DNA of 64,000 bases from positions 171,603 to 235,602 of the forward strand of contig DYIU01000005.1 of NCBI GenBank assembly GCA_020723485.1. The letters run 5' to 3'. The translations under genes were made by a program, and so were the position numbers. Source of the DNA: Acidimicrobium ferrooxidans (GTDB lineage: Bacteria; Actinomycetota; Geothermincolia; Fen-727; Anoxymicrobiaceae). The notes under the pieces were generated by a model. The model did not search any database, was not told the origin of the DNA, and saw only the letters and a list, made by a program, of their open reading frames with translations. This document shows positions 62,499-63,896 of this stretch, piece by piece (position 1 is the stretch's first letter; each line of letters begins with the position of its first letter).

Positions 62499-63896
62499 TT
62501 GGATAAGCTGGTCGTAGTGGGCGGTGTCGCCGCCGGGACCACGGCGGCCGCCAGGGCGAGGCGCTGCTGTCCTGACGGCTCGATCACCATCTGCGAGCAG
62601 GAGAAGTTCGTCTCCTACGCCGGGTGAGGGATGCCGTATTACATCAGCGGCGTGACCGCTGACCACAACAGTCTCATCGCCCGGACCCCCGAGGAATTCC
62701 GCGCGAAGAACTCCATCGATGTCAGGACCAGGCACAGGGTCACCGGCATCGATGCGGACGCGCGCCGCGTGATGGTCGCCGACCTGGAAGACGGCCGTGA
62801 GTCATGGATGGAGTACACGGTGCTCCTCCTCGCAACGGGGGCCTCGGCGTTCGTCCCCCCCGTGGATGGAATCGGGCTGGAGGGGTGTTTCACCCTTCGC
62901 AAGCTCGCTGATTCCATCGCCATCAAAGAGTTCATGAAGCGCAGGAAGCCCGCGAGGGCGGTCGTGGTGGGAGCCGGCCCCGTAGGGCTGGAGATGTGTG
63001 AGTCGTTCCGGTCGGTGGGGCTCGAGGTCTCGCTGGTCGAGATGGCGGACCAGGTCATGCCCCTCATCGATGCCGACATGGCGTCGGCGGTACAGGAGAA
63101 GCTCGAAGCAGAGGGCGTGAAATGCTTTACCGGAACCCGCCTGGAGGGGATCGTTGGCGACACGGACGCTGCGGTCCGGGCGGTGGCCACCTCCTCCGGC
63201 GAACTGGAGTGCGACCTGGCGCTCATCGGCATAGGCGTGAGGCCCGTCACCGACGTCGCGCAGCAAGCCGGGGTCGAGCTGGGTGCCGGGGGGGCGATAA
63301 GGGTCGACGCGCGGATGCGCACGAACGTTCCCGGAATCTTTGCCGCCGGGGACTGCGCCACCACGACCAACTACATAACGGGCGAAGAGACATGGATCCC
63401 GCTGGGGTCGACCTCCAGGAAGCAGGGCAGGCTCGCTGCCGACAACATGTTCGGCGCCGACCTCGCGTTCCCTGGCGTCCAGGGGACCTCCGTGGTCAGG
63501 TGCTTAGACCTCACGGTGGGACGGACCGGTTTGAGCGAATCCGAGGCCGGGGGTGCGGGCTTCGAGCCCGAGACCGTCAGGATGGAAGCTGAATCGCTGC
63601 ACGAGTACTTCCCGGGGGGAGGCTTGATACGCGTCAAGCTGGTGGCCGACCGCCCCAGCGGCAGGCTGCTGGGAGCCCAGGTCGTCGGCGACCTGGCCTC
63701 GACCGCGGAAAAGAGGCTGGACATCCTGGCCATGGCCGTAGGCTCGGGGATGACAGCCGACGACCTCCAGTACGCCGACCTCGCGTACGCGCCTCCCTAC
63801 AGCACCGCCATCGACGTCCCGATAATCGCGGCCAACCTGCTGACGGGCAAGCTCCAGGGCAAGCCCTGCTCCTGCAATCCCTTCGGCCTGGACTAA
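62499..63896 (+). CDS. Putative selenoprotein: CoA-disulfide reductase/NADH oxidase-like FAD-dependent disulfide oxidoreductase, in-frame TGA at 62625-62627 read as Sec43
   Basis: TTG 62499 after GGGAGGAAGAG: MDKLVVVGGVAAGTTAAARARRCCPDGSITICEQEKFVSYAG[TGA]GMPYYISGVTADHNSLIARTPEEFRAKNSIDVRTRHRVTGID...; continuous with ORF 62631-63896. Confidence 0.88.
62644..62662 (+). promoter_or_regulatory. Putative bacterial SECIS hairpin for the CoADR-like gene
   Basis: TCAGCGG-CGTGA-CCGCTGA: 7-bp perfect stem, 5-nt loop with G at position 2, 23 nt between TGA and loop. Confidence 0.72.

Follow-up and report, generated by a model that had tools for sequence, protein, structure and literature searches.

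A predicted two-selenoprotein operon in an Actinomycetota genome: a CoADR/NADH oxidase-like flavoprotein beside a rubredoxin-fused ferredoxin:thioredoxin reductase

Organization of the locus

The window analyzed here, a stretch of 64,000 nucleotides from Acidimicrobium ferrooxidans (contig DYIU01000005.1; GTDB family Anoxymicrobiaceae, phylum Actinomycetota), contains three consecutive genes on the forward strand near its 3' end. The first gene of this operon, grx (61676..61969), encodes a glutaredoxin-like protein of 97 amino acids with a CPHC motif, the Cys form (PF00462, 4.8e-12). It is followed by ftr::rd (61966..62475), the product of which is the catalytic domain of a ferredoxin:thioredoxin reductase (FTR) fused in frame to rubredoxin, and by nox (62499..63896), encoding a FAD-dependent pyridine nucleotide-disulfide oxidoreductase of 465 amino acids that resembles CoA-disulfide reductase (CoADR) and NADH oxidase. 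The window ends 104 bases 3' of nox because the contig stops there.

The nox frame starts at TTG 62499, preceded by GGGAGGAAGAG, and reads MDKLVVVGGVAAG...SYAG-TGA-GMPYYISG directly in the DNA. The TGA (62625..62627) occupies codon 43, the catalytic Cys position according to the frame and the relatives, and is the sole internal stop in 465 codons; the next in-frame stop is TAA at 63894-63896. An earlier note on this DNA had described this frame, its TGA and its end at 63896, and the sequence indeed reads so. The conventional ORF in the ORF list begins at ATG 62631, which corresponds to Met-45, and yields 421 amino acids. As the same note had pointed out, this ORF lacks the FAD-binding N-terminus: the GGVAAG strand and the catalytic residue are missing. 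Among the best 120 database relatives, 45 are called from Met-45, two residues past the TGA codon, and 11 more start some residues beyond it. Another 60 are full length and have Cys at position 43. P0007, from the database, represents such a Cys form.

The selenoprotein reading put forward in the earlier note concerned nox, for which it is supported; a second in-frame TGA just upstream, in ftr::rd, had gone unreported. The ftr::rd frame starts at TTG 61966 and contains the FTR catalytic motif CPC...CPC...C-Y-TGA, with the TGA (62227..62229) at the second active-site Cys of FTR, residue 88. Read-through continues as GLYVSRRVLEG...PERRP into the rubredoxin domain and ends at the stop TGA 62473-62475, giving 169 amino acids. 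The general pattern of CPC...CPC...C-x-[CU] followed by rubredoxin is thus complete, and the part before the TGA matches PF02943 (1.5e-14). Relatives are numerous (7840 at E<=0.001); the top-ranking ones are fused as well, and FTR::rubredoxin fusions are common. The best PDB match of the ftr::rd profile is 4tpu (E 1.2e-76). Across 30 loci of the phylum, the column of the TGA holds TGA in 16 and TGC/TGT in 14, and nothing else. On these grounds ftr::rd is predicted to be the second selenoprotein of the operon. Both nox and ftr::rd therefore carry an in-frame UGA at a redox position where Sec and Cys are exchangeable. A plain gene call breaks ftr::rd into two unrelated short ORFs. The AF2 model of the fusion protein was weak (pLDDT 77) and was left unused.

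The order grx, ftr::rd, nox is the same in five genomes of the host's family, one of which (G003) has a Cys FTR. The grx gene adjoins ftr::rd in all 30 loci examined across the phylum, and nox lies 3' of this pair in the host's family only. In G016, a genome of another family in the same class, the Sec-nox is sited away from the pair, as are the Cys-nox genes of the other families.

Selenocysteine decoding in the host

The earlier note had tied its prediction to the presence of Sec machinery, and SelA, SelB, SelD and tRNA-Sec are all encoded by the host. The genome of this uncultured actinobacterium (3.36 Mb, 11 contigs) carries on contig C5 a cluster of selD, a YedF-like gene, selA, selB and the tRNA-Sec gene. 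In the profile search, selB matched TIGR00475 with 369 bits. The tRNA-Sec gene, with anticodon TCA, lies directly 3' of selB and was found with RF01852 (76.1 bits) and also by ARAGORN; selA and selD were identified from the ORF translations of the cluster, not by profile. The selD gene (L025, about 2900-4006) has an in-frame TGA in AG-TGA-AAKI, the mechanical ORF start at 3035 lying 3' of it, and from its sequence SelD is probably a selenoprotein itself. SelB occurs in 28 of the 32 genomes of the class, every carrier of Sec-nox among them.

The tRNA census with RF00005, on an assembly that is about 95% complete, contained no UCA anticodon besides that of tRNA-Sec; tRNA-Cys has GCA and tRNA-Trp CCA. 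TGA is the ordinary stop of several genes in the window, including ftr::rd. ARAGORN also reported a tRNA-like gene with the four-base anticodon call cgtc (L173, contig C11, 82817-82888), which is probably a tRNA pseudogene or an odd fold.

Candidate SECIS hairpins were recognized downstream of both TGA codons. That of nox (62644..62662) reads UCAGCGG-CGUGA-CCGCUGA, with 7 bp, an energy of -10.6 and a loop (62651-62655) 23 nt past the UGA. That of ftr::rd (62240..62260) reads UCUCCAGG-CGUGU-CCUGGAGG, with 8 bp, an energy of -11.1 and a loop 18 nt past the UGA. Both, with their 5-nt loops, fit the bSECIS model as given in a 2026 review (loop of 3-9 nt with G among its first two bases, stem of 4-16 bp, spacing of 16-37 nt, energy <= -7.5; PMC13188914). 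A first hairpin filter had been set post hoc on the hairpins and was biased; the published model provides the fair test. Of 27 Sec-nox loci from several phyla, 21 fit it, against none of the 14 Cys homologues in the class, taken at the corresponding codon, and 7.9% of the other codon positions in the same nox genes. The six Sec-nox loci that fail the model come from other phyla. Among the 16 Sec-FTR hairpins, 11 miss the energy threshold of -7.5, with values of -6.7/-6.8.

Folding of the hairpin region by minimum free energy against shuffled sequences gave no significant z-score (0.01 to -1.1). The fold energy alone is therefore uninformative, and the analysis turned to the published SECIS constraints, to covariation and to codon constraint. 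Across the five genomes of the family, only 18 of 162 nox columns outside codons 44-62 have identical synonymous codons. In the hairpin (codons 49-55), four of the five scorable codons are identical, the strongest synonymous constraint in the gene, and the fifth co-varies with its pairing partner, from A-U to G-C in L030. The covariation score of the nox hairpin in alignment A4, where within-family sequences are few, was equalled in 75 of 500 shuffles. In the mainly deltaproteobacterial Sec-nox genes, a hairpin of another kind occupies almost the same site, and its covariation score was matched in 1 of 500 shuffles, a measure that kinship inflates. The ftr::rd hairpin shows a compensatory C-G/G-C pair, which tracks an E/D amino-acid change. 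In G003, the Cys form of FTR::rubredoxin (L105, C21:3090-3584; TGC) retains a SECIS-like hairpin, TCCGGG-CGTGT-CCTGGA, beside a Sec nox; judged from the sequence, it is possibly the product of a recent change from Sec to Cys.

Distribution, selection and phylogeny of nox

A TGA at nox codon 43 also occurs in four genomes of the host's family (G002, G003, G006, G009) and in G016, and the remaining nox-bearing members of the class have TGC/TGT there. Column 43 of the relatives is thus TGA or Cys, as a Sec-for-Cys exchange of the kind proposed in the earlier note would have it. The codons before the TGA are conserved as protein, with 28 to 32 of 42 residues identical. Pairwise dN is 0.16-0.21 for codons 1-42, against a dS of at least 0.55 where computable, and 0.25-0.33 from codon 44 onward, against a dS of 1.0-1.4. 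The low dN relative to dS before the TGA indicates that codons 1-42 are translated and selected together with the remainder.

In a maximum-likelihood tree of 55 proteins, the distribution of Sec and Cys forms can only be accounted for by three or more changes on branches with strong support. Most members of one large Sec clade are deltaproteobacterial (Thermodesulfobacteriota, Myxococcota), and Chloroflexota, Gaiellales and Eisenbacteria are also represented in it. The host's family and G016 stand apart from this clade, amid Cys forms. Members of the CoADR-like Sec clade (L047, L049, L057, L058, L060, L063, L067-L072, L076, L077, L082, L083) have a hairpin of the type GUCGGC...GUCGAC. The tree was built without L066, L078, L084 and L081, Sec-like matches that were too fragmentary. 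These four, from Clostridiales, Oscillospiraceae, Chloroflexi and a spirochaete, have TGA at the Cys-43 codon in frames that are short or cut, and a SECIS fitting the model is absent in three of them. A scan of the genomes with a degenerate pattern returned 40 stretches, about 16 of which were chance matches as judged by translation.

Alternative readings of the TGA in nox

Could the TGA simply be a stop? An in-frame TGA followed by an internal ATG does resemble a truncated gene call, and a nonsense mutation would leave nox as a decaying pseudogene. This is next to impossible, given that the TGA recurs in independent genomes, that codons 1-42 are as constrained as the remainder, and that no second stop appears in 465 codons, for which a complete FAD- and NAD-binding fold is predicted. 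The same recurrence excludes a read error at 62627, and the selection data exclude degeneration; both had been named in the earlier note as ways in which its reading could fail. It is likewise very hard to believe that the true product is the 421-residue protein from ATG 62631. The 45 relatives annotated from the equivalent start would agree with it, but such a protein would have neither the dinucleotide-binding strand nor the catalytic residue, and the 42 codons left out are those strongly conserved as protein. Reading of UGA as Cys or Trp through a suppressor tRNA or an altered code would suit the Cys found in homologues. It is equally far-fetched: tRNA-Sec alone has UCA in the census, TGA terminates other genes of the window, and hairpins fitting the model accompany TGA in nox, not TGC/TGT. 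Pseudogene, sequencing error, truncated start and altered code were accordingly rejected by recurrence, selection, the tRNA census and conservation.

Judged by sequence comparison, a chance origin of the TGA is excluded by its recurrence in other genomes and by the truncated relatives. The TGA of nox is predicted to be a selenocysteine codon and not a nonsense mutation, with Sec in place of the catalytic Cys as the earlier note had proposed; the sel machinery, the recurrent TGA, the SECIS hairpin and purifying selection all support this. By bioinformatic evidence, both UGAs of the operon are almost certainly read as Sec by the host's SelA, SelB, SelD and tRNA-Sec, guided by a SECIS hairpin 18-23 nt 3' of the codon.

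Predicted function of the two selenoproteins

The read-through product of nox matches Pyr_redox_2 (PF07992, 3.2e-65) and the dimerization domain (8.4e-13) in Pfam. The active-site motif S-[YF]-A-x-C-G-x-P-Y is present as SYAG-U-GMPY, Sec replacing Cys. Its best NCBIfam match is TIGR03385, CoA-disulfide reductase (1.5e-125), with a score of 419.4 bits under the equivalog cut-off of 578.8; the substrate is therefore left undecided by the sequence. The identification as CoADR/NADH oxidase-like in the earlier note was correct as to the fold and the nearest relatives. The AF2 model (pLDDT 92) has a complete FAD- and NAD-binding fold, and the PDB structures nearest to it are 3nt6/3nta and 3icr. Sequence identity is 35-40% to CoADR and persulfide reductases (3nt6, 3icr, 6ruz) versus 28-29% to NADH peroxidase. 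The protein ends at residue 465 and has no rhodanese domain (PF00581), a domain that Npsr and CoADR-RHD carry at the C-terminus. It ends instead in a tail with a CxC motif (63858..63893, ..GKPCSCNPFGLD), whose consensus G-K-x-C-x-C-x3-G-L-[ED] is kept within the class by Sec and Cys members alike and which occurs in 43 of the 45 database relatives called from Met-45. The tail is poorly modelled (pLDDT<50 at residues 460-465), and it was not found among the sampled Sec proteins of the mainly deltaproteobacterial clade. As Cys forms without the operon partners have it too, the tail is not specific to the Grx/FTR partnership. The Sec-nox of G016 (L034 / L092) ends in ...ICSC followed by TAG, and some related database proteins run on with DPDQGY-type tails.

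In chemistry of the CoADR type, NAD(P)H reduces FAD, and FAD reduces the active-site residue 43. From its fold and conserved motifs, the nox product would probably be a homodimeric NAD(P)H:disulfide or persulfide reductase of the CoADR/Npsr type. Electrons would pass from NAD(P)H to the FAD and then to the single Sec-43, the selenolate of which would attack an oxidized sulfur substrate, such as a CoA-type disulfide, a persulfide or a protein disulfide. The CxC tail, located at the position that a rhodanese domain takes in some relatives, might resolve the resulting selenenylsulfide or hand electrons on; this resolving or relay role is put forward tentatively. For FTR::rubredoxin, the chemistry and the roles of the FTR residues are presumed on general grounds, with PDB 4tpu as a relative. 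It is likely a ferredoxin:disulfide reductase with Sec as the cluster-proximal active-site residue, and Grx, its constant genomic partner, would be the acceptor.

Other functions deserve consideration. NADH peroxidase and water-forming oxidases belong to the family and share its fold, which would allow nox to encode a Sec enzyme that reduces H2O2 or O2 directly. This seems unlikely, as nox is closer in sequence and fold to CoADR and persulfide reductases, and its CxC tail and Grx/FTR neighbors suggest dithiol chemistry. The adjacency of the genes, in an order kept in five genomes, would also suit a serial arrangement in which nox encodes an NAD(P)H:rubredoxin reductase that supplies the rubredoxin domain of Sec-FTR. 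To our knowledge, however, rubredoxin reductases require no active-site thiol. The retention of Sec-43 through recoding and the occurrence of the grx-ftr::rd pair without nox across most of the phylum make this function still more improbable than a peroxidase or oxidase.

The preferred reading remains that of two disulfide reductases. This small operon probably specifies a pair of selenium enzymes whose redox roles are linked, and that it is a two-selenoprotein operon with a role of the disulfide-reductase type is very probable from the sequences, the electron route being left aside in this estimate. The gene order suggests that nox may feed the same Grx as FTR::rubredoxin. A ferredoxin route and an NAD(P)H route to reduced thiols may coexist in one cell, a proposal with slightly less than an even chance of being correct. 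A more specific scheme is rather doubtful: a thiol-reduction module in which Sec-FTR::rubredoxin and the Sec flavoprotein with its CxC relay might converge on one glutaredoxin, ferredoxin and NAD(P)H feeding one pool, with the Sec of the flavoprotein independent of a Geobacter-type origin.

Comparison with known systems

The idea of a Sec nox stands as an interpretation and falls as a novelty at the family level, since a Sec-containing NADH oxidase/CoADR had already been predicted for Geobacter metallireducens in 2006 (PMC1794560). One such sequence from the GOS ocean data followed in 2008 (PMC2398784), and a Sec FAD-dependent oxidoreductase, WP_011365774.1, is listed with the motif UGxP in the 2026 review (PMC13188914). 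The Geobacter protein is of the same family, and its Sec falls on the corresponding position of the motif, U-G-x-P. The host of nox belongs to a class of Actinomycetota and lies on the tree apart from the mainly deltaproteobacterial Sec clade (the comparison is with the sampled clade, not with the Geobacter protein itself), and nox has the CxC tail and the Grx/Sec-FTR operon, whereas the sampled Sec proteins of the deltaproteobacterial type have no CxC tail. Npsr of Shewanella loihica (3nta) and CoADR-RHD of Bacillus anthracis (3icr) are the nearest solved structures to nox, with a TM score of 0.93 over the query and 35-38% identity, and have the single active-site Cys-43 position in common with it; nox differs in having Sec and a short CxC tail in place of the rhodanese domain.

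Sec FTR, including a form with two Sec residues, was predicted in ocean metagenomes in 2008 (PMC2398784). Like the ferredoxin:disulfide (ferredoxin:glutaredoxin) reductase of PDB 4tpu, ftr::rd has two domains, the CPC...CPC...CxC motif and an adjoining glutaredoxin, but the last Cys of the motif is replaced by Sec. In the FtrB double-selenoprotein family (NF041072), as in the GOS Sec-FTR (PMC2398784), Sec stands at an FTR active-site position, a feature shared by ftr::rd; ftr::rd differs in its single Sec, the first active-site Cys being kept, and in its fusion to rubredoxin. It scores 45.2 bits against the 160 bits of the FtrB_double_U model. The open-access search found no dedicated paper on rubredoxin-fused FTR, and the selenoprotein-operon passage of the 2026 review (PMC13188914) does not name the combination of grx, Sec-FTR and Sec-nox. 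The kind of protein is thus already known; what is new is the phylogenetically separate lineage, the CxC tail conserved at the C-terminus and the joining of two selenoproteins in one operon.

Significance

Two published surveys had known the Sec-nox family from just a single genome and a single ocean sequence, and the large CoADR-like Sec clade is far wider than the lone Geobacter case of the literature. Gene callers cut these genes at the UGA, which deprives 45 of the best 120 relatives of nox of their FAD-binding strand and catalytic residue. The operon joins two Sec enzymes, each of which is normally Cys-based. Moreover, the natural Sec/Cys swaps in the lineage, such as the Cys FTR of G003 and the Cys form P0007, offer a natural test of the benefit of selenium in disulfide reductases. 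The literature searched contained nothing on Sec use in Geothermincolia-related Actinomycetota, and the two predicted selenoproteins extend the use of Sec within this group.
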